21,239 bases of DNA from a virus. The stretch lies in the IMG/VR virus record IMGVR_UViG_3300020596_000119, positions 1-21,239 of that record; one strand, given 5' to 3'. The notes below the pieces were generated by a model, which was given only the letters and a program-made list of their open reading frames with translations, was not told the origin of the DNA and ran no database searches. Every line of letters begins with the position of its first letter. Position 1 is the first letter of the stretch. A program made the translations under genes and the position numbers. Positions 2,319 to 20,198 of this stretch are shown here, piece by piece.

Positions 2319-3007
2319 GTGACTATTCCTCCGAATTAATTCAGAGGCTTTTAGGGTTTTTGCCCAAAGTCTGTAATCCCAGACTATTTTTGTTATATTT
2401 TAATAAACCGTTCACGAGTATATTTGTGGCGGCGTTTTCGTCCCGATCAAGTTCCATGCCGCACTTGCTGCATTGATACGTTCTTTGATCGAGTTCTTGT
2501 TTCGCCACGTTCCCGCATTGTGAACAAGTTTGCGTCGTATAAGCGGGTTCCACCAAAATCACAATTTTACCAGCATTTTCGGCTTTGTAAATTATTTTCG
2601 ATTTCAGATCGCTGATCGCAAGATCGGCCCACCTACGGTTGACGGCATGTTTATTACTTCCTTCCATCATTCCTTTTACCTTGATATCTTCAAGGCACAA
2701 AATATCGTATTCGTTCACCAGAGATCGGCTTAGCTTATGATTGTAGTCATTTCGACGACGTTCGACTTTCGTGTAGCACTTAGCTATTGCTTTGTTGATC
2801 GGTTTAGAGTTTTCGGGCTCGACAAGCTTTTTACGCTGAAGACGGGAGATATCCTTAGCTTTAGATTTTCGGAATTGGGGCGTTCCGTAATACTTCCCTT
2901 CCGAAGTTGTGACGCAAGACTTCATACCGAAATCGATGCCAACGGCCCGCTCCAAGACTAACTTATGGACCGATTCACGTTCAACGGTGACATTGACGTA
3001 CATCTGG
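2319..3007 (-). mobile_element. 5'-truncated tnpB element (IS200/IS605 type) with intact right end
   Basis: Homology to the first copy runs from the right end at 2319 through the tnpB 3' half and stops abruptly near 3007 (after the ACATCTG it shares with 489-499). Right-end hairpins are AGTCT/AGACT (2368-2385) and CCTC..GAGG (2328-2347, + strand). Reading the - strand, the boundary after AATAGTCAC is inferred from divergence against the solitary right end at 9842. No left end and no tnpA are present. Confidence 0.8.
2341..3003 (-). pseudogene. tnpB: N-terminally truncated TnpB (RuvC and zinc ribbon only)
   Basis: The 220-codon frame equals residues 151 onward of the copy at 946. An in-frame TAG lies just upstream, so it cannot extend. 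It keeps all three RuvC acids (Asp24, Glu105, Asp188 in DRDENAAT) and the four zinc cysteines (160, 163, 178, 181), but lacks the WED/REC half that grips the guide RNA and target. It is therefore unlikely to cut DNA alone. Its 3' end and right end still contain what would be the omega RNA scaffold, which could serve the intact copy in trans. Confidence 0.9.
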
Positions 3008-4692: not shown

Positions 4693-4717
4693 CTTTAAAT
4701 AGATTTTGAGGATTATT

Positions 4718-5791
4718 TTGAAAGCAATTATTACTGTTGGCCTTGGATTTGGAGATGAGGCCAAGGGTTCTACCGTTGATTTCCTATGCAGGAATGTTAA
4801 AAAACCTTGCGTTGTTCGTTATAGCGGAGCCCATCAATGTGGCCACAATGTTCACACTAAAGACGGTAAAAGTCATTGCTTTTCTCAGTTCGGGGCTGGG
4901 ACTTTGGCTGGAGCCGACACCTATGTTGATCGGGATGTATTGATCGAACCGTTTGCTATGGAGCGAGAGGCCGAGCATTTAGTCGCATTGGGTATTAAAA
5001 ATCCATTTGATATGATCAGATTTCACCCAGAATGCAGTGTAACCACACCTTATCATAAAATCGTTAATAGGGCTATACAAAAAGAAAATAGTATTGGGTC
5101 ATGTGGACTTGGGGTGGGGATGACTCGCTTAACAGATCTCAGGGGGGTTTCAATTAAGAGCGGAGACTCTCCAAGTTTAATCCTTAATAAAATGTTTCAA
5201 ATTAGAGCAATTTTGGAGGATTTCTATTATTCCAAGTATAAGACTCCACTAGATTTTAGTGGATGTAGTATTAATTTTATTTGTAGAAAACTTTGCGAGT
5301 CACTCGATAAGTTGACTTTATCAATACCTTCAGGAGAAGATAATTATTCTCATGTTATTTTTGAGGGTGCCCAAGGAATGGCTCTTAATGAATATACTAG
5401 GTATGACCCCCTAGAAAGCACTTGGGGTAATGTTAGTCCTAGAAACGCCGTGGAGCTATGTGAGTTTACAGGTGTCTCCTACACCATTATGGGGGTGGCT
5501 AGGACTTACGCAACAAGGCATGGTGGAGAACTTCCTCGTAATTGGGCATCTATCAAGGTTCCCAAAGATGAAGGAAATCCCACCAATCCCTACCAAGGAG
5601 AAATGAATTATTATCATTGGCGTTCAGATGTTTTTGAAGAAATGTATGAAAAGTCCGGGGCTATTTGTTTAGCCTTGAACCATCTGGACGAATATGATGG
5701 TAATAGGGATTATTTTGACAAATTTAATGTTGTTATTGAGGGGCGAGGAAAAACCGCCCAAGACAAAAAAATGATAAAGGACGTTTTATAG
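4718..5791 (+). CDS. purZ: Adenylosuccinate synthetase family protein, PurZ-like
   Basis: PurA-family enzymes join aspartate to a purine nucleotide at the expense of GTP or ATP. Read from TTG 4718 (GAGG six bases upstream, at 4708) the protein has 357 residues, far shorter than PurA (about 430) and close to the phage PurZ size. An in-frame TTG at 4706 is less well placed. Landmarks: GLGFGDEAKG (Asp13), HQCGHN (His43), GSCGLGVG, FEGAQGMALN and RTYATRHGGELP. The family's catalytic Asp and His are both kept. From memory, characterised phage PurZ proteins often replace that Asp, whereas archaeal-like PurZ0 forms keep it. The Arg/Thr block around PurA residue 130 is replaced by SCGLGVGMTRLTDL. PurZ turns dGMP into N6-succino-2-amino-dAMP, the first step to 2-aminoadenine DNA. 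A PurA activity on IMP is the alternative. The stop overlaps the next start by one base. Confidence 0.8.
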   Translation: MKAIITVGLGFGDEAKGSTVDFLCRNVKKPCVVRYSGAHQCGHNVHTKDGKSHCFSQFGAGTLAGADTYVDRDVLIEPFAMEREAEHLVALGIKNPFDMIRFHPECSVTTPYHKIVNRAIQKENSIGSCGLGVGMTRLTDLRGVSIKSGDSPSLILNKMFQIRAILEDFYYSKYKTPLDFSGCSINFICRKLCESLDKLTLSIPSGEDNYSHVIFEGAQGMALNEYTRYDPLESTWGNVSPRNAVELCEFTGVSYTIMGVARTYATRHGGELPRNWASIKVPKDEGNPTNPYQGEMNYYHWRSDVFEEMYEKSGAICLALNHLDEYDGNRDYFDKFNVVIEGRGKTAQDKKMIKDVL

Positions 5792-6981: not shown

Positions 6982-7008
6982 ATAAATTCAATTTTTTAGA
7001 AAGATACT

Positions 7009-7644
7009 ATGAGTTTAGATTTAATGTTGTTGATTGAAAAAGTAAAAATTTCTATTACGAATACTTTACTTAACGAGTCAAAACTTGACGCAGAGTCCTC
7101 TGCGGTTCAGGGGTTCACCGGAATCAAAATTCGGCACCTACTTAATAATCTTGGATCGTTCTCCACTAATTATTTAGAGATTGGGGTCCATAAGGGAGCC
7201 ACTTTCGTCGCGGCTAATTTCGGAAATTCTATGAATTCGTATTGCTGCGATAACTGGGTGGACTTTGATGAACAAGGGCGATCAAGGAAAGAATTTTATT
7301 ATAATAAAGGTCGCCTGCTAAACAACCCAATTAAAGTGTTTGATCAAAGCTGTTGGGACTTGACAGCCGACCAAATAGATACTAAGATAGACTTTTACCT
7401 ATATGACGGCCCGCATGATTACGAAGATCAGGTTATGGCTCTTTCGGTTATCCATCCATTTTTAGCAGAAACATTTATTTATTGCGTTGATGATTGGGAC
7501 TGGGAGATGGTTCATACTGGTGCCCGAGAGGGTATTAGGAGGGCTAATCTAGAGGTTTTGTTTGAGCAGGAGTTTGTGGGCGGTGGCTCGGACCCAAATT
7601 GGTGGAATGGTTTTTATGTTGCGGTTTTGAGAAAGAAAGTATAA
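7009..7644 (+). CDS. SAM-dependent methyltransferase-like protein
   Basis: A 211-residue protein with a Rossmann-type motif I, YLEIGVHKGAT, a DNW acidic turn, DFYLYDGPHDYED and a late CVDDWDW. The order fits the Methyltransf_24 group of class I methyltransferases found in many phages and in carbohydrate clusters. It does not carry the NPPY or PC motifs of DNA N6/N4 or C5 methyltransferases, so base methylation is not indicated. The substrate is unknown. It is followed after one base by the kinase-like gene. Confidence 0.7.
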   Translation: MSLDLMLLIEKVKISITNTLLNESKLDAESSAVQGFTGIKIRHLLNNLGSFSTNYLEIGVHKGATFVAANFGNSMNSYCCDNWVDFDEQGRSRKEFYYNKGRLLNNPIKVFDQSCWDLTADQIDTKIDFYLYDGPHDYEDQVMALSVIHPFLAETFIYCVDDWDWEMVHTGAREGIRRANLEVLFEQEFVGGGSDPNWWNGFYVAVLRKKV

Positions 7645-7645
7645 A

Positions 7646-8101
7646 ATGCCTAAGTTAACCCTTATAAGAGCTTTACCGGGAGCCGGGAAATCGACTCTAG
7701 CACTAAAGTTAGCAAAAGAAAAAAATAATGTAGCTGTTGCTGCCGATGATTTCTTTACTCATGATGATGGGTCCTATAATTTTAACTTTAATCTAATTCA
7801 GGTGGCCCATGAGTGGTGCCTAGGAACAGCATTTTTCCATCTCTCTAGGGGGAAGGATGTTTTTGTTCATAATACGTTTGTCGAACGATGGACCATAGAG
7901 AAATATTGCGATTTTGCCCACAGAAATAATTATGACTGGGATATTGTTGAACCCACCACCAAGTGGCGTTATGATGTTAAGGAATGTGCGGTTAAGAATT
8001 CACACGGCTTAACAGAGACTATGATACAAAAGATGTGGGATAAATGGGAGACTACCAAAGATATCCTTAAGGCTTTTGAAAAATATCGAAAAGAGGCTTA
8101 G
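7646..8101 (+). CDS. P-loop kinase-like ATPase (N4BP2L1/AAA_33 type)
   Basis: The 151-residue protein opens with a Walker A (LPGAGKST, residues 10-17), then AADDFF (32-37) and GSYNFN, then a histidine/tryptophan segment AHEWC, DVFVHNTF, and a C-terminal EPTTKWRYDVKECAVKNSHG. This succession is the signature of small zeta-toxin/polynucleotide-kinase-like ATPases related to NEDD4-binding protein 2-like 1, common in phages. Relatives are proposed nucleoside, nucleotide or RNA-end kinases; the substrate here is open. ATG is one base after the methyltransferase stop. Confidence 0.8.
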   Translation: MPKLTLIRALPGAGKSTLALKLAKEKNNVAVAADDFFTHDDGSYNFNFNLIQVAHEWCLGTAFFHLSRGKDVFVHNTFVERWTIEKYCDFAHRNNYDWDIVEPTTKWRYDVKECAVKNSHGLTETMIQKMWDKWETTKDILKAFEKYRKEA

Positions 8102-8131
8102 CAAAGAAAAAATATAGGACCATTAGGTATT

Positions 8132-8204
8132 GACATGGGCCACCAAGTAGGGGGCCCACCCGATTGGGTCGGGTCGTTCGCCCCATATAGATATTTTTTC
8201 TTTG
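8132..8204 (+). terminator. Repeated GC box plus T-run, copy B
   Basis: GGGTCGGGTCGTTCGCCCC lies at 8166-8184, followed by ATATAGATATTTTTTCTTTG. Upstream, CCCGA-TTGGG-TCGGG (8159-8173) forms an alternative hairpin that excludes the first, so two structures compete. TTGACA at 8132-8137 lies about 30 bases upstream of the box with no clear -10. Probably terminates the 4718-8101 operon, possibly by attenuation. Confidence 0.5.
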
Positions 8205-8229
8205 TACCGTTTTTAATAAGGAATGTTTT

Positions 8230-8871
8230 ATGCAAATTTACGAAACCTGTGCTGGAGATGAAATTTCTCCCACTATTAATAATGCAATTTCACAAGCAAT
8301 AAGTTACGACGAGTTGATTACTTTTGAATTTAACGATGTTGAGGTTATTGTGGGGGGAAATTCAAACCCCGAATTGATTCTTAGAGATTGGGAGCGTGGA
8401 ATGAGTGGGTATTTAGGGGATGATCCAGTTGTGGGCCCATATCCAGACGAAGAATTGTCTGCAAGTGATTTAGAATCAGATTCAAAAATTAAGGCCCTTC
8501 AAGATGAGGAATCTAAAAAAACTCAAGCTGGGTACGATAAAAAGCAATCTGAACAAAAATTAGCTTTGCAGAATGCCTTACATTTAACGGGGCCCATTGA
8601 GCTATCGGATAAGCCTCTGTGGGACTCTCTTGTTGAATCTAATGATGATGACTATGGATTACGAGTCGTTTGCTATGCGGAAGATTGGGCTCGATTGATG
8701 CAGGGTCGTATTCATCTTGGGTCTACCGTGGCAGATTGTGCTAAAGACACGGGAGAATTGGCGGATGATGACGGGATTAGTGGGGCGATGCATGGCTTTG
8801 CAATGCAAACACTAGTTCAGTGCTGGAAACATGGTGACGAGTTACGGGCGTGGAAAAGTGGAGCAAAATAG
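8230..8871 (+). CDS. Hypothetical acidic protein
   Basis: A 213-residue protein with a small beta-rich N-terminal part (to about 75), a polar, likely coiled-coil middle (SDSKIKALQDEESKKTQAGY...) and a more hydrophobic C-terminal domain (from about 125) with DDDGISGAMHGFAMQTLVQCW. No motif I recognise. It is preceded by repeat copy B and followed by a fresh promoter at 8914, so it is probably a one-gene transcript. Confidence 0.7.
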   Translation: MQIYETCAGDEISPTINNAISQAISYDELITFEFNDVEVIVGGNSNPELILRDWERGMSGYLGDDPVVGPYPDEELSASDLESDSKIKALQDEESKKTQAGYDKKQSEQKLALQNALHLTGPIELSDKPLWDSLVESNDDDYGLRVVCYAEDWARLMQGRIHLGSTVADCAKDTGELADDDGISGAMHGFAMQTLVQCWKHGDELRAWKSGAK

Positions 8872-8913
8872 CTCTAAAGGACCCCTCTGGTTAATTTTTT
8901 ATGGCTTTGCCGG

Positions 8914-8941
8914 TTGACATGGACGTAGCTTGTGCTACAAT
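8914..8941 (+). promoter_or_regulatory. Strong sigma70-like promoter
   Basis: TTGACA (8914-8919), a 16-base spacer and TACAAT (8936-8941). It drives the small membrane genes and ssb. Its position rules out any start codon before about 8948 for the next gene. Confidence 0.8.
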
Positions 8942-8971
8942 GTGTGCAGTCTTAAATTTGTGGAGCTAATA

Positions 8972-9175
8972 ATAGATAAACAAAATCTTGGTTTTTTGTG
9001 CGTAATACTTTTTATGGTGTTAATAATGTCTTTGTTGGGAGCCTCGGCTGCCTATCTAGACGGTACGGCGAAAGCCAATTGGTTAAAGAAAAGCCGAGAT
9101 ATCGACATTCCTTGGCATGAGGCGACTTGGCTTAATGTTAATATTAGTTCGGTAGACACTCAAGTGAAAAAATAA
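8972..9175 (+). CDS. Small membrane protein, possible ATA start
   Basis: The open frame is clear (transmembrane segment LGFLCVILFMVLIMSLLGAS, polar tail ending DTQVKK), but its start is not. The only good ribosome-binding site, GGAG at 8962-8965, is six bases ahead of ATA 8972. Other in-frame choices are GTG 8960, with no ribosome site and almost no leader, and ATG 9014 or 9026, which would cut the membrane helix. ATA 8972 gives 67 residues. Function unknown. Confidence 0.55.
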   Translation: MDKQNLGFLCVILFMVLIMSLLGASAAYLDGTAKANWLKKSRDIDIPWHEATWLNVNISSVDTQVKK

Positions 9176-9184
9176 GGAATCAAA

Positions 9185-9247
9185 ATGTTAAGACATTATT
9201 TTATTAACTCTGTTGGAAGATATTATTTAGGGGGAATTGCCTCATGA
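9185..9247 (+). CDS. 20-residue microprotein
   Basis: ATG 9185 follows AAGGAATCAAA and reads MLRHYFINSVGRYYLGGIAS before TGA. Its stop overlaps the ATG of the next gene (ATGA at 9244). It may be a genuine microprotein or simply a leader peptide that couples translation of the next gene. Confidence 0.4.
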   Translation: MLRHYFINSVGRYYLGGIAS

Positions 9248-9393
9248 ACTCTTATCTTCTAGGCATAGTATGTTTAATTTACTCTGTTACTTTTCTAACA
9301 AGTTTATTAAACAAAAATTATAGTTTGGCCCTCATTTACTTTGCCTACGCACTTTCGTTAGTAGGCTTCATCATTCAAGAATCTCACGGTTAG
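9244..9393 (+). CDS. Two-helix small membrane protein
   Basis: 49 residues (MNSYLLGIVCLIYSVTFLTS... ending IIQESHG). Two hydrophobic helices are joined by LLNKNYSL, with N- and C-termini on the same side. GGGGGA lies 8 bases upstream. Proteins of this shape (short hairpin with a SLLNKKYS-like turn) recur in phages without known function. It ends 7 bases before ssb. Confidence 0.65.
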   Translation: MNSYLLGIVCLIYSVTFLTSLLNKNYSLALIYFAYALSLVGFIIQESHG

Positions 9394-9400
9394 GAAAAAC

Positions 9401-9763
9401 ATGTTAAACAAAGTTATGCTCATTGGTCGTATTACATCCTCGCCCACCCAAAAGCAGGTCGGCCCCCAGAACCTTTTACGCTTCTCTCTAGCGATCAATC
9501 GTAAGATGGGCGACAAGGAGGAGACCCTATTCATCGACTGCGACTTCTGGGGCGAGAGGAGCGTCAAAATCGCCCAGTGGATGGTCAAGGGTAAGGAAGT
9601 TTATGTTGAGGGCCGCCTAAAGGTGGACAAGTGGGAAAAAGATGGAGTTCCCTACAGCAAGATGTTTGTTGTGGTTGAAAACGTAGAATTTATTAATTCA
9701 GGCAAAAAAACTGAAAACGTAGAATCCGTAGATTCAGAAAACAAGGAGCCAGTCAATGTATAA
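9401..9763 (+). CDS. ssb: Single-stranded DNA-binding protein, C-terminus altered
   Basis: A 120-residue bacterial-type SSB. The OB fold spans residues 1 to about 100 with the usual MLNKVMLIGRI start, LRFSLAINRK, IDCDFWGE, KGKEVYVEGRL and a VVVENVEF end. It coats ssDNA at the replication fork. After the OB fold only a short acidic/polar tail (to NKEPVNV) is left, and the normal acidic tip ending in Pro-Phe that recruits partner proteins is absent. The stop codon (9761-9763) lies where homology to the tnpB element begins, so the tail may have been cut by an insertion. It uses more GC-rich codons than its neighbours. Confidence 0.93.
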   Translation: MLNKVMLIGRITSSPTQKQVGPQNLLRFSLAINRKMGDKEETLFIDCDFWGERSVKIAQWMVKGKEVYVEGRLKVDKWEKDGVPYSKMFVVVENVEFINSGKKTENVESVDSENKEPVNV

Positions 9764-9842
9764 TATAGCAAAACAAGTCTGGGATTACAGACTTTGGGCC
9801 AAAACCCTAAAAGCCTCCGGATTAATTCGGAGGAATAGTCAC
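9760..9842 (+). mobile_element. Solitary IS right end / orphan omega-RNA-like scaffold
   Basis: About 80 bases match the last codons of tnpB and the right end of the copy at 2319-2400, in the opposite orientation. The hairpin AGTCT-gggattac-AGACT (9776-9793) is kept exactly. The terminal hairpin is kept by pair-preserving changes: CCTCCG/CGGAGG here, against CCTCTG/CGGAGG in the other copy. The match ends with AATAGTCAC at 9842. In active TnpB systems the RNA scaffold ends at this boundary and the next roughly 16 bases act as guide. No tnpB or left end is attached. Confidence 0.8.
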
Positions 9843-9878
9843 CTACCTATATTTTTTATCTTGCTCATTAGTGTTGGA

Positions 9879-10142
9879 ATGGGAGATCCTCCAAAGAAAA
9901 CCCAGCCCCAAACACGAAACAATGGGCGAGCACTTTTGAACTCGACCCAGAACCGCCCTAATATGTACGGCGGGTATAATCAATTTGGTAATGATCATTT
10001 TGATAGGTTCTTTATGAACCAAATGGGCGGATTTACGTATCAGCGTGGACCAGTTCAGTATACACCGGCTAATCTATATGGGCCCGGTAACAGCAACTAT
10101 AGTAATGGGGGTCGATACGACAGTCGGAATGGCAATCGATAA
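9879..10142 (+). CDS. Asn/Gly-rich low-complexity protein
   Basis: The open frame extends up to 9756, but everything before about 9843 is IS right-end sequence, so the native start is probably ATG 9879 (87 residues, MGDPPKKTQPQTRNNGR...). The ribosome site is weak. The protein is rich in Asn, Gly, Tyr, Gln and Arg (NMYGGYNQFGNDHF, FMNQMGG), lacks hydrophobic core segments and is probably disordered. It resembles the linkers of SSB or RNA-binding proteins in composition. It could be a displaced part of the ssb region, but lacks an acidic tip. Function unknown. Confidence 0.5.
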   Translation: MGDPPKKTQPQTRNNGRALLNSTQNRPNMYGGYNQFGNDHFDRFFMNQMGGFTYQRGPVQYTPANLYGPGNSNYSNGGRYDSRNGNR

Positions 10143-10284
10143 CTTAGTGTAGAATGGTGGTTCGATTCCACCTCGCTTGTCGAGTTTTGGTAAGAAGGGA
10201 GCTTGGTTAAAATCCAAGTGATAGTCCTATTTGTAATAGCTTATAGGTAACTCTGCGAGACAAAGACACGGACGGCCAGTCCGA
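10143..10284 (+). other. Structured intergenic stretch with a tRNA T-arm-like hairpin
   Basis: GGTGG-TTCGATT-CCACC (10156-10172) is a perfect T-arm by stem length and loop consensus (TTCRANY), but no matching acceptor, D or anticodon arm precedes it. Downstream are CTTGG-ttaaaat-CCAAG (about 10202-10219), CTATT-TGT-AATAG (about 10228-10241), CTCGC/GCGAG (about 10172 with 10257) and CGGAC-GGCCA-GTCCG (10270-10284). It may be an untranslated RNA or a tRNA-derived relic. Confidence 0.4.
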
Positions 10285-10321
10285 TAAAATCTTCTTTGAT
10301 AGGAAGATGGGGGTATTTTTT
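10285..10321 (+). terminator. Hairpin plus T-run, direct repeat T1
   Basis: ATCTTC-tttgatag-GAAGAT is followed by GGGGGTATTTTTT. An identical stretch of about 36 bases lies at 12346-12382. It is probably a rho-independent terminator, although the bases between stem and T-run are more than usual. Confidence 0.55.
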
Positions 10322-10358
10322 AGAAGTAGGTATCTATATTGTTTTTTTGGAGTTTATG

Positions 10359-10568
10359 ATGACTATAACAATTTCGGGAAAAGTAAAGACAGGCAAGTCA
10401 GTGATTGCACAAGCGATTTCTAGGGCATTGAAAGCTCATGGATTAAACGTGTTGATCAACGACTGTGACCATCCTGATGGACTCAATGACAAATATATTC
10501 ATGGGTGTCTTGACTCTCTTAGGGATAAAGAAATACCAATTGAGATTAAGTTAATTCGTGAATCTTGA
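10359..10568 (+). CDS. Short P-loop protein
   Basis: ATG 10359 (GGAG six bases upstream; a second ATG at 10356 is too close) gives 69 residues. A Walker A (SGKVKTGKS) is followed by a helix AQAISRALKAHG, then VLINDCD, where a kinase's second acidic motif would be. The protein then ends, far short of a complete kinase. Such miniature P-loop proteins are recurrent in phages. It converges with and overlaps by 23 bases the - strand gene ending at 10546. Confidence 0.7.
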   Translation: MTITISGKVKTGKSVIAQAISRALKAHGLNVLINDCDHPDGLNDKYIHGCLDSLRDKEIPIEIKLIRES

Positions 10569-10776
10569 TTCCATGATGTTCGGTTGCGTGAGAGATGAAG
10601 TTTCTAATGTGACTTGGAGTAATCCAAGTTTTATCCGAGAGGTGCAATATCCAATTGAGAATTTTTTCCGAAGTGTTGCATCTATCAAAATCAATTTCAT
10701 ATGGACCGCCAGTATTCGGGCTAGGGTCTGTTAGAATAATGCAGTTTTCTGTTACGTGAACTAGTTTGTTTGCCAC
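10546..10776 (-). CDS. Hypothetical protein, convergent with the P-loop gene
   Basis: GTG 10776 is preceded by AAAGG at the right distance and gives 76 residues (VANKLVHVTENCIILTD...). The open frame continues upstream into repeat R1 (ATG 10818), but that part is repeat sequence. The protein seems a small alpha/beta fold with a GGPYEIDFDRC strand and a helical C-terminus. No family recognised. Its leader is repeat R1, which it shares divergently with the gene at 10916. Confidence 0.65.
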   Translation of the reverse strand: MANKLVHVTENCIILTDPSPNTGGPYEIDFDRCNTSEKILNWILHLSDKTWITPSHIRNFISHATEHHGIKIHELT

Positions 10777-10795
10777 GGAATTTACCTTTTGAATT

Positions 10796-10894
10796 GAAAA
10801 CAGAACGCCCGCGATCACCTAGTCGCGTAATTTTACAACTTTTTTTATTAACGGACGACACGCGACTTAGGTGCATCGCATTGTTCTGTTTGTT
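10796..10894. repeat. Palindromic divergent-leader repeat R1
   Basis: 99 bases, identical over the core to R2 and R3. Outer arms AAACAGAAC (10798-10806) and GTTCTGTTT (10883-10891), then GCGAT/ATCGC, then CACCTAGTCGCG against CGCGACTTAGGTG, closing on a 32-base AT-rich centre with seven T. Genes are read away from it on both sides. Confidence 0.9.
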
Positions 10895-10915
10895 TTCACA
10901 TTTTTTGGAGTTATT

Positions 10916-11116
10916 ATGAAGTTAAAATTAGTAGCAGATGGTAGTTTCTTTTATCCTAATATGAAGATAGTAAACGAAGAAACTGGAGAATTCGTTGAAG
11001 CTGTGGGGGCAATTGAAATCAAGACAGTCGTTAATGGGCGGGCATCTGTCGTAATTACTATGATGGACATGGCTATTGCCGTAAACGTAGACTGCCAACT
11101 TAACGACCAGCATTAG
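10916..11116 (+). CDS. Hypothetical small beta-rich protein
   Basis: ATG 10916 with GGAG 7 bases upstream, 66 residues: MKLKLVADGSFFYPNMKIVN, then AVGAIEIKTVVNGRASVVITM, ending CQLNDQH. Alternating hydrophobic residues suggest a small beta barrel or sandwich. The ATG is about 20 bases beyond repeat R1. It overlaps the convergent gene ending at 11113 by 4 bases. No family recognised. Confidence 0.65.
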   Translation: MKLKLVADGSFFYPNMKIVNEETGEFVEAVGAIEIKTVVNGRASVVITMMDMAIAVNVDCQLNDQH

Positions 11117-11322
11117 TTTCGAAGCGTTATGACGTATGGGTGTAGTTGTCCCGACTGATAGTCCACAAAAATTACCCCATCGTTTTTTAATTCTTCGGCA
11201 ACCATTCTCATGACGGATGGATCATCGGTCAAATCCTTAAATAATTCGGAAACAATTGCGTTTGTCTCTCCAGATTCGCGTATTTTGTTCAAACGCTCGA
11301 TACATTCAGATTTGATGGACAT
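11113..11322 (-). CDS. Hypothetical helical protein
   Basis: ATG 11322 gives 69 residues (MSIKSECIERLNKIRESGETN...DDPSVMRMVAEELKNDG...). The in-frame extension into repeat R2 (ATG 11355) is only repeat sequence. Mostly helical, ending in a short strand pair VIFVDYQSGQLHPYVITL. The leader immediately upstream (GGTTACTTTCG plus repeat) is shared base for base with the - strand gene starting at 11929, so both probably share expression signals. Confidence 0.65.
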   Translation of the reverse strand: MSIKSECIERLNKIRESGETNAIVSELFKDLTDDPSVMRMVAEELKNDGVIFVDYQSGQLHPYVITLRN

Positions 11323-11332
11323 GGTTACTTTC

Positions 11333-11431
11333 GAAAACAGAACGCCCGCGATCACCTAGTCGCGTAATTTTACAACTTTTTTTATTAACGGACGACACGC
11401 GACTTAGGTGCATCGCATTGTTCTGTTTGTT
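11333..11431. repeat. Palindromic divergent-leader repeat R2
   Basis: Same 99-base sequence as R1, including both outer arms. Together with R3 it additionally shares GGTTACTTTC on its left side (11323-11332). Confidence 0.9.
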
Positions 11432-11443
11432 ATGAGGGATATT

Positions 11444-11713
11444 ATGGAAACTTTGCCGCTAGATATGTCAAGAAACGTTCCTAGATCATTCAACAACTAC
11501 CCAATAGAGGTTGATGATACGGGGCATTTTTTATTGCAAACGATGAGGTTTGACGAGTTTGATTACCCACTCACGCTTAGCGTTTTAGACGCAATGAAAT
11601 TGTTGTCTAAATATGATCCAGAATGGGATAACCGATTATATGAATGCATGAGATTAGCCATTAAGGATGGTTCATTGACACATGACGATTACGTTAGTGT
11701 TCTAAAGTTTTAG
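11444..11713 (+). CDS. Hypothetical protein
   Basis: ATG 11444 (GAGGG 6 bases upstream) gives 89 residues, METLPLDMSRNVPRSFNNYP..., with a mostly helical second half (LDAMKLLSKYDPEWDNRLYECM). An earlier in-frame ATG at 11432 is possible but lacks a ribosome site. It overlaps the convergent gene ending at 11702 by 12 bases. No family recognised. Confidence 0.65.
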   Translation: METLPLDMSRNVPRSFNNYPIEVDDTGHFLLQTMRFDEFDYPLTLSVLDAMKLLSKYDPEWDNRLYECMRLAIKDGSLTHDDYVSVLKF

Positions 11714-11929
11714 TTGTACAAAGTTATTCCAATAGGCCCTAGCTTCTTTGTAATAGTCAGATATTTGCTGTGGAGTTCCCTCTACGACTAGATCGACGCT
11801 ATCGACCCCATCACAAACAAAACGAAATAGGTATCCCCCATTTTTTGGGTCTGATCTATCGACGCTAATAACGACAATCTGCCGATGTAGCAAATCTGCA
11901 AGTTGCGTTAGGATTGGGTTGTTTTTCAC
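11702..11929 (-). CDS. Hypothetical alpha/beta protein
   Basis: GTG 11929 occupies the position of ATG 11322 in the sister unit and gives 75 residues (VKNNPILTQLADLLHRQIVV...). It shows strand-like segments IVVISVD, GYLFRFVCDG and VDLVVEG, then a helix DYYKEARAYWNNFVQL. Leader sequence is identical to that of the gene at 11322. No similarity between the two proteins is apparent despite the shared leader. Confidence 0.65.
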   Translation of the reverse strand: MKNNPILTQLADLLHRQIVVISVDRSDPKNGGYLFRFVCDGVDSVDLVVEGTPQQISDYYKEARAYWNNFVQLKL

Positions 11930-11939
11930 GGTTACTTTC

Positions 11940-12030
11940 GAAAACAGAACGCCCGCGATCACCTAGTCGCGTAATTTTACAACTTTTTTTATTAACGGAC
12001 GACACGCGACTTAGGTGCATCGCATTGTTC
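11940..12030. repeat. Palindromic divergent-leader repeat R3
   Basis: Identical to R1 and R2 except that the right outer arm is cut after GTTC (12030), so the outermost pairing is lost. The inner arms and the AT-rich centre are intact. Confidence 0.9.
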
Positions 12031-12050
12031 GTCCGCTTGGAGTTTAGATT

Positions 12051-12290
12051 ATGTGGATATGGCGAGAAGATAAAGAAGAGACCAAAGAAGTAAAGTTGTT
12101 GATGATTTTGAAGTATTCGGATAAAATGTCCGAAGATCTCATTTTCGTAAACACAAGTACGGAATGTGGGGTTGGGACTATGTTAATGGGCCAACTTAAG
12201 GATGCCGGAATACCATGTAGGCCGATTTCCTACCATTATCCATTGGCCCCCGATCACAAAAGTCGTCGGGAAAAAATCATTCACGTTTAA
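12051..12290 (+). CDS. Hypothetical protein, last gene of the repeat array
   Basis: ATG 12051 with GGAG upstream, 79 residues (MWIWREDKEETKEVKLLMIL...). It carries a charged start, a strand KLLMILKYS, and a GVGTMLMGQLKDAGIPCRPISY segment that looks like a helix followed by a strand. Unlike the other array genes it has no convergent partner. The terminator-like repeat T2 follows 56 bases downstream. Confidence 0.6.
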   Translation: MWIWREDKEETKEVKLLMILKYSDKMSEDLIFVNTSTECGVGTMLMGQLKDAGIPCRPISYHYPLAPDHKSRREKIIHV

Positions 12291-12345
12291 GGTAGATCTT
12301 GGATTCTATCGCAACCAATTCGGATTTCAAAATCGTTAGCTCCCT

Positions 12346-12382
12346 TAAAATCTTCTTTGATAGGAAGATGGGGGTATTTTTT
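12346..12382 (+). terminator. Hairpin plus T-run, direct repeat T2
   Basis: Same sequence as at 10285-10321: ATCTTC-tttgatag-GAAGAT, GGGGGTA and a T-run. It closes the repeat array on its right side, as T1 does on the left. Confidence 0.55.
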
Positions 12383-12421
12383 TATAGACTGTGTTCGGTG
12401 AATTGTTTATTGAGGTAAATT

Positions 12422-12655
12422 ATGGTAGTTGATAAGAATGGTATTGGAATTATTTCTGGTCAGAAGGTATTAGCTCACTATGATGATGGTACACGACACG
12501 GTATTGTCGTTAAACCTTTTCCAGACAATCCCACAATCAATTCTCCCGGTCATTGGGTCGATATCAGCATCGAGAATGCCGGTCCAGAGGGTGTCCCGTC
12601 GTACATCTTGGAAGTCTACGAAATCCTGAGATCACCGCAGGCCGAGGAGAAATAA
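12422..12655 (+). CDS. Hypothetical small beta protein
   Basis: ATG 12422 with GAGG upstream, 77 residues. The first half (ISGQKVLAHYDDGTRHGIVVKP) reads like a small SH3- or PAS-like barrel with a polar strand-turn-strand pattern. The rest is VDISIENAGPEGVPSYILEVYEIL. Its TAA is followed directly by the next ATG (TAAATG). No function recognised. Confidence 0.65.
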   Translation: MVVDKNGIGIISGQKVLAHYDDGTRHGIVVKPFPDNPTINSPGHWVDISIENAGPEGVPSYILEVYEILRSPQAEEK

Positions 12656-12973
12656 ATGAGTAGTAAAGAAACTGAGATCGAGGACTTCGGTGCATCGCAT
12701 TGTTCTCTTGTGCTCACGAGGCAGGAGTTAATTGATGATCTGACTAAGTTCCTTTTGGATAAATGCCCGTGGAGCGAGGCAGGTGATTCGTGGGCACAGT
12801 TGTCACTTCATCATTCTGATTTAGAGTACGATTTGCTTGTGCGAAATTTATTTGCGATTGAGTTTGTTGATGGTTTTTTATCTAGCCAAAAGCAAGTGCG
12901 TCAAGATAATCGATCAGTTCTGGTTCCTGCCTCCATCGAGCAAGAACATGGTCAACAAATACCTACGGATTAA
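12656..12973 (+). CDS. Hypothetical protein carrying a half repeat
   Basis: 105 residues, MSSKETEIEDFGASHCSLVL..., with helical segments TRQELIDDLTKFLLDKCPW and LEYDLLVRNLFAIEFVDGFL, and a polar tail. Codons for DFGASHCS are a near-exact copy of the right arm of the R repeats (12683-12706), so part of the N-terminus derives from, or gave rise to, that repeat. No known family. Confidence 0.65.
   Translation: MSSKETEIEDFGASHCSLVLTRQELIDDLTKFLLDKCPWSEAGDSWAQLSLHHSDLEYDLLVRNLFAIEFVDGFLSSQKQVRQDNRSVLVPASIEQEHGQQIPTD
12683..12706 (+). repeat. Half copy of repeat R inside a gene
   Basis: 24 bases from GACTTCGGTGCATCGCATTG through TTCT match the right arm of R1-R3 with a single change (C for A). 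The left arm and centre are absent. Confidence 0.85.
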
Positions 12974-12996
12974 GGCAAATTACAATTACGTCACCA

Positions 12997-13473
12997 TTGA
13001 TAAAACGGGCTCTTAAATACTTCCTTATATCCACATTGTTGTGTTTTGCATTTTGGCCAACAAAAACTTATAAAGTTGTAGTTTCTGATTCTGATCCTGA
13101 TTCTGTTATGATCGAGCCGGAACTAATTCTGGAACCGGCAGATCGACCGACCCCTCCAAAGCTATTGGAGCCAGAGCCTGAAATTAAACAATCGTTTCAG
13201 GCATCTCCACCTAAAGAAAGTTATCTTCCTAAGGACGGTTATTTTTCTAGTCCTAAAACGGTTACTTCTTACAGGCCCATTAGTCCCGAAGACTTACCAA
13301 ACACCAAACCTTGGTACTATCGTGGTAAAGGAACTCTTAGGGATCACATACAAGAAGTCCATAGCATCACCCCATTTATGATGGCATTGTTTGACACCGA
13401 ATATGATCTAAAAAAATTACACTCTTTTCTTCACAATGGAGGTGATTTAAATTCTATACAAAGAAAAAAGTAG
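12997..13473 (+). CDS. Membrane-anchored proline-rich protein
   Basis: 158 residues if read from TTG 12997; no clear ribosome site, so the start is tentative. Residues 5-21 (ALKYFLISTLLCFAFWP) form a signal anchor. A long extended region rich in Pro, Glu and Ser follows (about 25-105), then a small helical domain (GTLRDHIQEVHSITPFMMALFD...). This is the layout of an envelope-spanning spanin- or Rz-like protein, but no such motif is recognised, so function is open. Confidence 0.55.
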   Translation: MIKRALKYFLISTLLCFAFWPTKTYKVVVSDSDPDSVMIEPELILEPADRPTPPKLLEPEPEIKQSFQASPPKESYLPKDGYFSSPKTVTSYRPISPEDLPNTKPWYYRGKGTLRDHIQEVHSITPFMMALFDTEYDLKKLHSFLHNGGDLNSIQRKK

Positions 13474-13510
13474 TATATAATCACCCTATAACATTAACCA
13501 AAAGGTCTTT

Positions 13511-14095
13511 ATGTCCGATTTTATGACTGTTGTAAAAGATCATCTAAAACCACTAAGGTCTTATATTAACCAAAGACTTTATTCTAAATTAAAAAAGATC
13601 GTTGACGCTGACGATATTCTTCAGGAAACTCTAATTAGTGCTGGGCGAAGATATGAAAAATTTCTTACCAGTAAAATACCATTCACCATTTGGCTTTATA
13701 AAATAGCTGAAGATGAGGTGATTGAAGCATATAGGGTTTATGTTAAGGCTAAAAAAAGAAGTATCTCAAGAGAATGCTCCGACGAAAATTACATTGAAAA
13801 TGAATATGGGGCGTTTTATAGCAATCTTCACGAGGCGAATATTGAACAGCCTTTAGAGTTAGCCATCTTGTCGGAAAACACTTCTATTCTAAAACAAGCT
13901 TTTAACAGGATGAATGATCAAGATAAAAAAATACTATATATGAAGCATATAGACCGGTTGAGTAACCGTGAAATAGCCGACCTAACTGGATTATGTGTAC
14001 ATACTGTATCTATGAGGGGCCTTAGGGCCTTTAACAGGCTAAGAAAAAGTGTCATAGATAACCCGGAGTTTATGGAGATGTTATGCCAGAAGTGA
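13511..14095 (+). CDS. ECF-type sigma factor, Planctomycetes-like
   Basis: A 194-residue sigma70-family protein. Region 2 covers about residues 15-80 (IVDADDILQETLISAGRRY, IPFTIWLYKIAEDEVIEAYR), and region 4 about 125-185 ends in a helix-turn-helix (LSNREIADLTGLCVHTVSMRG). Region 1 and region 3 are lacking, as in ECF sigmas. The DADDILQET form and the following KKRSISRE are typical of the planctomycete group. It would redirect host RNA polymerase to phage promoters. A weak TATAAT (13476-13481) precedes it. Overlaps the helicase gene by 13 bases. Confidence 0.82.
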   Translation: MSDFMTVVKDHLKPLRSYINQRLYSKLKKIVDADDILQETLISAGRRYEKFLTSKIPFTIWLYKIAEDEVIEAYRVYVKAKKRSISRECSDENYIENEYGAFYSNLHEANIEQPLELAILSENTSILKQAFNRMNDQDKKILYMKHIDRLSNREIADLTGLCVHTVSMRGLRAFNRLRKSVIDNPEFMEMLCQK

Positions 14096-17310: not shown

Positions 17311-17395
17311 GATGCGTAGCCGCATCCGGACCTTATATTCACTGTGTTCATAACTCCGCTACTCGGTCTTGACGACCTCATAACACGCTACGTTT
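17310..17395 (+). other. Candidate structured RNA after the dNMP kinase
   Basis: Hairpin GGATGCG-tagc-CGCATCC (17310-17327) begins at the stop codon. CGTAGC (17315-17320) can instead pair with GCTACG (17387-17392), enclosing GTGTT/AACAC (17344-17348, 17382-17386) and GGTC-ttgac-GACC (17365-17377). The two folds exclude each other. No coding frame or known RNA class is seen. Confidence 0.4.
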
Positions 17396-17397
17396 GA

Positions 17398-17428
17398 CGG
17401 GGGAAACCCCCGCCGACCCCCGGTTTTT
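17398..17428 (+). terminator. Rho-independent terminator with competing 3' arms
   Basis: CGGGGG (17398-17403) pairs with CCCCCG at 17407-17412 (loop AAA) or with the CCCCCG at 17417-17422, directly ahead of TTTTT (17424-17428). A classic terminator for the sigma-helicase-primase-kinase operon. Confidence 0.75.
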
Positions 17429-17453
17429 ATTTACTTAATTTTGTGAGGATATA

Positions 17454-17585
17454 ATGGGGTATGTAGAGGGAAATGTGCAGTGGGTTCATAAGATAGTAAA
17501 TTTTATGAAGCAGGCCTTGCCCGATAACGAATTTATAAACTGGTGCCGGATAATAGTAAATAACAATATAGAAGGTAATATTTAA
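17454..17585 (+). pseudogene. C-terminal remnant of an HNH endonuclease
   Basis: A 43-codon frame with a good ribosome site (GTGAGGATATA) reads MGYVEGNVQWVHKIVNFMKQ... and ends CRIIVNNNIEGNI. The segment YVEGNVQWVHKxVNxMK followed by a Phe-Ile-x-x-Cys block is the tail of phage HNH endonucleases, normally preceded by an SLDRID-type metal motif. The catalytic part is missing. It may be only a relic, but it is translatable and its stop overlaps the next start by one base (TAATG). Confidence 0.6.
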
Positions 17586-18607
17586 TGGAAATAAAATTCT
17601 TAAGGTCGAGTTCGTACAACCAATTTGAATATTGCCAAATGTCTTACTATATAACGTATAATTTAGGAATAAGATCTAGAAACACGATTAAAACTAATTA
17701 TGGTACTGTCACTCATAAGGTTTTAGAAGGATTCGCTAATTGTAAAAAAACGATTCAGGATAATCCAAAAAAGAAAGATCTTTCATTTAAAGATGAAGAA
17801 ATGGGAATTCTTAATTTTAACGAAGATTCAATAATGTCAGAAGACTTTGTTAAAGAATTAACTGATAAATCATATGAATACTATAGAATAAATAATCCTC
17901 ACCTAGACCATAATGTTAAAAAAGATTATAAATTTTGTAGATCTATGGTTGACGTTGTTATAAATCATAACGACGGGCAATACGATCCTCGCAAGCAAAA
18001 TATAGTTGCGACTGAACCTTTATTCTCTATTCCTATTGATGAAGAATGGGCTAAATTTGATTACAATGGAGAGCTATACCAGCTAGAAGTAAAAGGTAGT
18101 ATAGATTTAATAACAGAAATAAATAAAGATACTGCTCAGATAACAGATTGGAAAACATCGGCCACGAGAAAAAACTGGGCGACAGGAGAAACGAAAGAAG
18201 AAAAAGACTTCTATAACGATTTTCAACTCCTACTCTATAGCTTCTCAGCACATAAAATGTATCCACAATATTCTCAGTTTATACCGACTATTTATTTTAT
18301 TCAGGCTGGCGGGCCATATTCTTTATGTTTCGACGAATCTCATAAGAAAAAAGTTTTATCTAAAATGAAAGATCGCTTATACGAAATATTAAAATGCAAG
18401 CTTCCAAAGCCAATCAATAAGTGGCGATCAGATTTTAGATGCACTAGGTTGTGTCAATTTTACAAAGATAATTGGCCCGGTACAGAAACCAGAATTTGTA
18501 ATTATGTAGAAGATCATATTAAACTTTATGGCATAGATAAAACATCTGTGGAATTAAAAGAAAAAAATCATTCGGTTTCACACTACCAAGCTCCCGGTTC
18601 CATTTGA
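17585..18607 (+). CDS. Cas4/RecB-like PD-(D/E)XK exonuclease with Fe-S cysteines
   Basis: 340 residues. SSSYNQFEYCQMSYYI (Cys17), GTVTHKVLE (His44), GSIDLITE (Asp174), ITDWKT (Asp188, Lys190) and QLLLYS (Gln214) give the RecB-family nuclease core. CTRLC (286, 290) and Cys305 with Cys17 make four cysteines, as in the 4Fe-4S site of Cas4 and AddB. It probably processes DNA ends in recombination or replication. No CRISPR genes are near. Codon use is distinctly more AT-rich than the helicase-primase block, suggesting a different history. Confidence 0.85.
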   Translation: MEIKFLRSSSYNQFEYCQMSYYITYNLGIRSRNTIKTNYGTVTHKVLEGFANCKKTIQDNPKKKDLSFKDEEMGILNFNEDSIMSEDFVKELTDKSYEYYRINNPHLDHNVKKDYKFCRSMVDVVINHNDGQYDPRKQNIVATEPLFSIPIDEEWAKFDYNGELYQLEVKGSIDLITEINKDTAQITDWKTSATRKNWATGETKEEKDFYNDFQLLLYSFSAHKMYPQYSQFIPTIYFIQAGGPYSLCFDESHKKKVLSKMKDRLYEILKCKLPKPINKWRSDFRCTRLCQFYKDNWPGTETRICNYVEDHIKLYGIDKTSVELKEKNHSVSHYQAPGSI

Positions 18608-18631
18608 TCTCACTAATTAGAGAAAGTCCCC

Positions 18632-20068: not shown

Positions 20069-20128
20069 ATGATTAGGAGCTATCCCATAATTGTTTCTGT
20101 GGGGGCCATAATGTTTGTGGTGGGCTAA
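20069..20128 (+). CDS. 19-residue hydrophobic microprotein
   Basis: ATG 20069 behind AAGGAG reads MIRSYPIIVSVGAIMFVVG and stops at 20126-20128. The ribosome site is one of the best in this stretch and the peptide is one membrane span. Its stop lies 7 bases before repeat copy C. It could be real or chance. Confidence 0.4.
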   Translation: MIRSYPIIVSVGAIMFVVG

Positions 20129-20135
20129 CCCGGTT

Positions 20136-20178
20136 GGGTCGGGTCGCTCGCCCCCCTATATGTATTTTTTCTTTTGTA
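20136..20178 (+). terminator. Repeated GC box plus T-run, copy C
   Basis: GGGTCGGGTCGCTCGCCCC (20136-20154), followed by TATATGTATTTTTTCTTTTGTACC. CCCGG-TTGGG-TCGGG (20129-20143) repeats the competing hairpin of copy B, with a G.T pair where copy B has A-T. Confidence 0.5.
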
Positions 20179-20198
20179 CCATTTTTTTGAGAGATATT

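Follow-up and report, generated by a model that had tools for sequence, protein, structure and literature searches.

A phage gene island present or absent at a 37-bp terminator-like repeat, with palindromic elements between its small gene pairs

Phage accessory genes turn over fast, and the molecular units of this turnover are rarely seen. The PeSL cassettes associated with Arbiol et al. in 2010 and Comeau et al. in 2014 are said to be gained, lost and shuffled via their repeats, and excised circles were reportedly proposed. As cited in PMC4503421, PeSL (promoter-early stem-loop) repeats lie between small genes of the T4-type phages RB49 and phi1 and mediate shuffling. In the haloarchaeal myovirus HGTV-1, a TATA-like motif and an inverted repeat precede many ORFs, and shuffling has been suggested (PMC3950731). 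The ESAS/SAS of cluster K mycobacteriophages, imperfect repeats of 17 bp around a spacer of 4-13 bp, are tied to translation start (PMC3203893), and bidirectional bacterial promoters are presented in PMC12825309 and PMC10268837 as pseudo-symmetrical DNA driving divergent transcription. Finally, cyanophage S-PM2 offers a deletion of 9.5 kb in its ORFanage, for which mispackaging was proposed by the authors (PMC4503421).

Here we describe a locus at which near-identical phages show an island in its filled and in its empty state, a repeat (T) forming the junction, and in which identical elements (R), bidirectional in our reading, frame unrelated gene pairs. The feature is real and well-formed, and its kind is that of repeat-mediated phage accessory-gene cassettes.

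The phage and the layout of the island

The window, i.e. the whole stretch of DNA analysed, is a linear virus record of 21,239 bases from IMG/VR. Its replication and nucleotide genes encode a thymidylate synthase, an adenylosuccinate-synthetase family protein, an SSB and a DnaB-like helicase, accompanied by genes for a Toprim primase, a dNMP kinase and a PD-(D/E)XK nuclease. It belongs to a tailed phage, possibly with a planctomycete host. Rfam and tRNA scans of the whole window gave no matches. The island is flanked on the left by the SSB and glycine-rich protein genes (9401-10142) and on the right by the genes for a 158-aa protein and a sigma factor (12997-14095).

Between these neighbours the order is T1, A1 (+), A2 (-), R1, B1 (+), B2 (-), R2, C1 (+), C2 (-), R3, D1 (+) and T2. 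The ORF positions agree with the gene order, the strands and the 3' overlaps of the convergent pairs (23, 4 and 12 bp) given by the first-pass annotation, and BLASTP related no pair of the seven proteins, which it had called unrelated. Four genes lie on the + strand: A1 (10359..10568, 69 aa), B1 (10916..11116, 66 aa), C1 (11444..11713, 89 aa) and D1 (12051..12290, 79 aa). The three others, A2 (10546..10776, 76 aa), B2 (11113..11322, 69 aa) and C2 (11702..11929, 75 aa), are on the - strand. With a coding score built from the codon frequencies of the phage's other genes, the called frame of every one of these ORFs, A1 to D1, scored between 0.10 and 0.21 bits per codon and the other five frames were negative; since the coding signal is confined to the called frame, the small ORFs, those on the - strand among them, are all likely to be genuine genes. 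In codon usage and GC the island is the same as the phage, and blastn of the island DNA against annotated phages gave no match.

A1 encodes a small P-loop NTPase-like protein, with CbiA/ParA Pfam matches just under the cut-off (E 6e-5). A comparison with defence-system models gave nothing beyond weak P-loop matches for A1. A2 is the sole island gene placed in a phage family (phrog_12459/phrog_2559, at E 4.6e-12 and 2.1e-10). Relatives of A2 were found neither by DNA pattern nor in phages at 1e-5 (at a limit of 10, E was 5 or worse among the matches listed), nor in the PDB, and its predicted fold is too poor for use (pLDDT 57). B1 matched no family.

Several features elsewhere in the window deserve mention in their own right. 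The adenylosuccinate-synthetase family protein (4706-5791) is matched better by PurA models than by the PurZ model, both below cut-off. A TnpB-type gene region is present in two copies, 93% identical (1-499 and 2505-3006), the first being cut by the contig end; no TnpB relatives were found among genome contigs. An approximately 90% copy of the right end of the IS605/TnpB element (2311-2402) occurs without a transposase gene at 9762-9849, inside the ORF at 9756-10142; the contig L005, described below, has the same copy, which is possibly a solo guide-RNA end. An intergenic repeat, 85% identical between 8152-8214 and 20122-20186, ends in a terminator-like GGGTCGGGTCGTTCGCCCC and a T-run.

Boundary repeats and the empty site

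T1 (10285..10321, + strand) and T2 (12346..12382, + strand), the bounding terminator-like repeats already noticed by the first-pass annotation, are identical over exactly 37 bp. T1 consists of a hairpin followed by GGGGGTATTTTTT, a terminator-like arrangement; its 8-bp stem (-8.4 kcal/mol) is not better than that of shuffles. The hairpin of T2, also terminator-like, is stronger (-12.6 kcal/mol). In the noncoding DNA upstream of T1 (10154-10325), a tRNA-like T-arm (GGTGGTTCGATTCCACC) and more small hairpins are visible; a structured RNA at 10143-10325 was considered and rejected, its folding being no better than that of shuffles and neither Rfam nor tRNA models matching.

L005 is another IMG/VR contig, from metagenome 3300015360, which matches the window at 99.7% identity over 6989-10321 and at 99.8% over 12346-13235. 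It lacks the whole island of 2061 bp, and both flanks are joined at one copy of T, the sequence around the site being base-perfect for 1121 bp on the left and 92 bp on the right. To its left, this single T has the flank of T1, and to its right that of T2. One crossover between T1 and T2 would be expected to leave this arrangement; alternatively, it would be the site at which a circle with one T integrates. The island is thus present or absent as one unit, and the junction falls in the 37-bp repeats T. L073, a less close relative whose helicase is 73% identical, has the genes for the glycine-rich and the 158-aa proteins close together, and no island, T, E or F (the gene at 12656-12973) between them. 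As both L005 and L073 are without the island, the site is variable. A search for T outside the window returned only L005. Gain or loss by exchange between repeats, as suggested by the first-pass annotation, is therefore supported by L005, but the repeat involved is T and not R.

The window and L005 also differ at other places. At 17311-17590, L005 has about 1.5 kb more. In this segment lie a nucleotidase gene of the NT5C type (PF06941) and a large ORF whose tail, which is endonuclease-like, is all that the window keeps of it; since the tail remains and L073 has a nucleotidase-like ORF there, the window seems to have lost this segment. The PD-(D/E)XK nuclease gene at 17587-18621 is about 79% similar between the two, with near-identical stretches around it, a mosaic replacement adjoining the endonuclease-like ORF.

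The palindromic element R

R1 (10796-10894) and R2 (11333-11431) do not differ at any of 99 bp (100% identity). R3 (11940-12030) shares exactly a 91-bp core with both and its right end diverges after GTTC; R2 and R3 can be aligned over 104 bp at 99%. The identity of the copies claimed by the first-pass annotation is thus confirmed. R is palindromic far beyond chance, with a folding energy of -37.2 kcal/mol where shuffled sequences reach -18.4 +/- 3.1 (z = -6.0, 0/200), but the palindrome is imperfect: the right arm has two extra bases. The arms are inverted copies differing by small insertions and deletions, around a centre of roughly 31 nt. Palindromic repeats from other viral loci (L009, L017, L019 and L045) have, per base, less stable folds than R1.

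Each copy lies 10 to 22 bp from the start codons on either side, three times over, with a ribosome-site-like sequence directly outside. As R is flush with start codons on both sides, transcription of the - genes would most simply start within it. GTG codons are also seen in both arms (10803-10894 and the other copies). The reading frames that they open continue in phase into each of the - genes and into B1 and C1, with the shared peptides MIAGVLFS and MHRIVLFV; all this could be due to chance.

A fourth, half-length copy, outside the interval delimited by the first-pass annotation, is found on the - strand at 12683-12709 in gene F. It corresponds to the right arm (93% over 27 bp, 23/24 in the core) and is unlikely to be chance (BLAST E about 4e-4 within the window). 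It also occurs at the same place in L005 (3634-3660), the only contig in which a relative of gene F was found. A 21-bp R-like match in L073, located in coding sequence with E 0.09, was judged to be chance.

The position of R between start codons fits the divergent promoter that had been proposed at first pass; no sigma-70-like site reaching 9/12 was found in R1-R3, however, and the match to an ECF-type motif is tentative. By eye, the window does have sigma-70-like sequences outside R, for example TTGACA/TACAAT near 8912. Read inward, the arms of R show GAAC and then, after 15 (left) or 16 (right) bases, GTCGCGT; this core from GAAC to GTC is what the half-site in gene F spans. Each arm of each copy contains GAAC-N15/16-GTCGC (6 hits against 0.3 expected, the copies being homologous and not independent). 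Apart from these copies, the motif lies upstream of no gene, whether of the window or of L005 and L073. ECF promoters have AAC at -35 and CGT at -10 (PMC8103513), and the criterion applied here was an AAC -35 box and a CGT -10 box about 16-17 bp apart. The arms of R have the AAC, followed at 15/16 bp by GTC instead of CGT, which appears only at 19/20.

We consider it likely, from its sequence and placement, that R is a bidirectional promoter. Which sigma factor would read it is a more tentative matter. The phage encodes an ECF-type sigma factor (13511..14095, + strand), a candidate user of R, which scores above the cut-off of TIGR02937. Its best match is to TIGR02984, a subfamily specific to Planctomycetaceae, with E 1.3e-30 but under the cut-off of that model. 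The ECF reading is suggested by the proximity of this gene and by the AAC that matches the described -35 box; the non-canonical -10 match and the absence of the motif before other genes count against it. That this factor reads R is a guess, and a rather unlikely one.

In the mechanism that we propose, homologous recombination between the T copies would remove the island; alternatively, the island would enter as a circle carrying one T, by a single crossover. Every R would act as a bidirectional promoter/leader element with an inward-facing promoter in each arm, so that the two fire across each other, one into the - gene to the left and one into the + gene to the right. The left arm and the T-rich centre of R form, in all three copies, a terminator-like hairpin for incoming + transcripts, and no terminator-like sites are listed at the three convergent gene junctions. 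Transcripts arriving from the convergent partner would meet this strong hairpin, and read-through would be stopped.

Since all copies of R are identical, R x R recombination could in addition delete, duplicate or exchange modules consisting of R, a + gene and a - gene. Such exchange is plausible, as the modules, themselves unrelated, have near-perfect repeats of 91-104 bp between them. The first-pass annotation had proposed to search for R elsewhere, and this search, run on viral and genome contigs, found no second genome with R. Patterns for R or its arms returned, from 2.9 million viral contigs, the L005 half-site and chance-looking matches outside any palindrome context, and those for the R core returned nothing from genome contigs. 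With R in one genome only among the viral and genome contigs searched by pattern and the annotated phages searched by blastn, R x R exchange is unobserved. If R does exchange, a phage would be assembling arrays of regulated genes with no need for an integrase. The fullest version, in which R would be an ECF-sigma-read palindromic bidirectional promoter and also the exchange point of two-gene cassettes, with islands captured as circles via the terminator repeat, would amount to an integrase-free cassette array in a phage; we regard it as doubtful.

Alternative readings and described relatives

R might also be a divergent promoter/operator of the ordinary kind, whose copies arose by gene conversion and do not help to move genes; only the island as a whole would then move, via T. 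This explanation fits the facts that T is the site of the only observed event and that no R-bearing relative with other module content was found by pattern among viral and genome contigs. Perfect identity over 91-99 bp between unrelated genes would, however, be an efficient substrate for homologous recombination in the phage, from which some R x R loss would be expected, and we hold gene conversion to be possible but not probable. The island, or its absence in L005, could further be an assembly artefact, given that both sequences are metagenome contigs and that the repeats measure 37 to 104 bp. Against this, the L005 junction is base-perfect between long identical flanks, the GC and codon usage of the island are those of the phage, L073 is without the block too, and usual final assembly k-mers are longer than the 37 bp of T; an artefact is very unlikely.

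Two further explanations concern R as a mobile or recombinogenic element, and we give both hardly any weight. In an integron-like reading, R would be an attC site, and the phage would carry the island as an attC cluster that lacks an integrase. The palindrome of R, about 99 bp long, is indeed imperfect, one arm having two extrahelical bases, and it recurs between modules; attC clusters also occur in virulent phages (PMC9892861). Yet neither the RYYYAAC nor the GTTRRRY core box is present on either strand (10771-10930), R stands at gene starts on both sides and not after genes, and no integrase is found among the ORFs and families examined in this 21 kb fragment. A MITE-like insertion element that landed between genes by chance would account for a short inverted-repeat structure in several identical copies, but not easily for the fact that all three lie between the starts of divergent genes and are directly bordered by ribosome-site-like sequence; moreover, target duplications at the flanks were not seen (by eye) and the patterns used retrieved no related element from 2.9 million viral contigs or from genome contigs. 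Taken as a whole, an accessory-gene island subject to T x T recombination, with R as bidirectional element, is the explanation that we somewhat favour.

The statement of the first-pass annotation that no system of this form is described was too strong, the PeSL cassettes and the motif and inverted repeat of HGTV-1 being described relatives in kind. In HGTV-1, a proposed archaeal counterpart of the PeSL phages, as here, an inverted-repeat promoter-like motif is dispersed ahead of small genes; it is, however, one archaeal TATA-type motif per ORF, and neither a shared bidirectional element nor a repeat-bounded block is described. ESAS/SAS resemble R in being inverted repeats just upstream of some small non-structural genes, but they are shorter and almost all in one orientation, and no repeat-bounded loss is described in the extracts of that source; the 13-bp GGGATAGGAGCCC start-associated repeat is absent, by eye, from the flanks of R. 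The bidirectional bacterial promoters described are from E. coli and Salmonella plasmids, whereas the symmetry of R extends over about 99 bp. The S-PM2 ORFanage is likewise an orphan phage gene block lost as one unit, but boundary repeats are not reported in the text of PMC4503421, whereas the island has T1 and T2.

The likeness to PeSL is in composite regulatory elements that recur among small accessory genes unrelated to each other, and in a gain or loss of genes tied to repeats. The stem-loop of PeSL acts as a transcription terminator; in R, the terminator-like hairpin predicted on the + strand in the left arm of each copy may do the same. PeSL carries a strong sigma-70-like early promoter, whereas R has no match of at least 9/12. 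R is in addition a palindrome of about 99 bp serving two divergent genes, its copies are identical and the genes alternate between strands; the RB49 stretch that we examined has a run of small genes on one strand, with short, imperfect repeats (65 to 88%). The event seen here also took place at a separate boundary repeat, T, and not at R, in contrast to the shuffling at the PeSL repeats. The PeSL cassette of T4-type phages is nevertheless the nearest described kind, of which the island would be a palindromic, bidirectional variant with repeat-bounded loss or gain.
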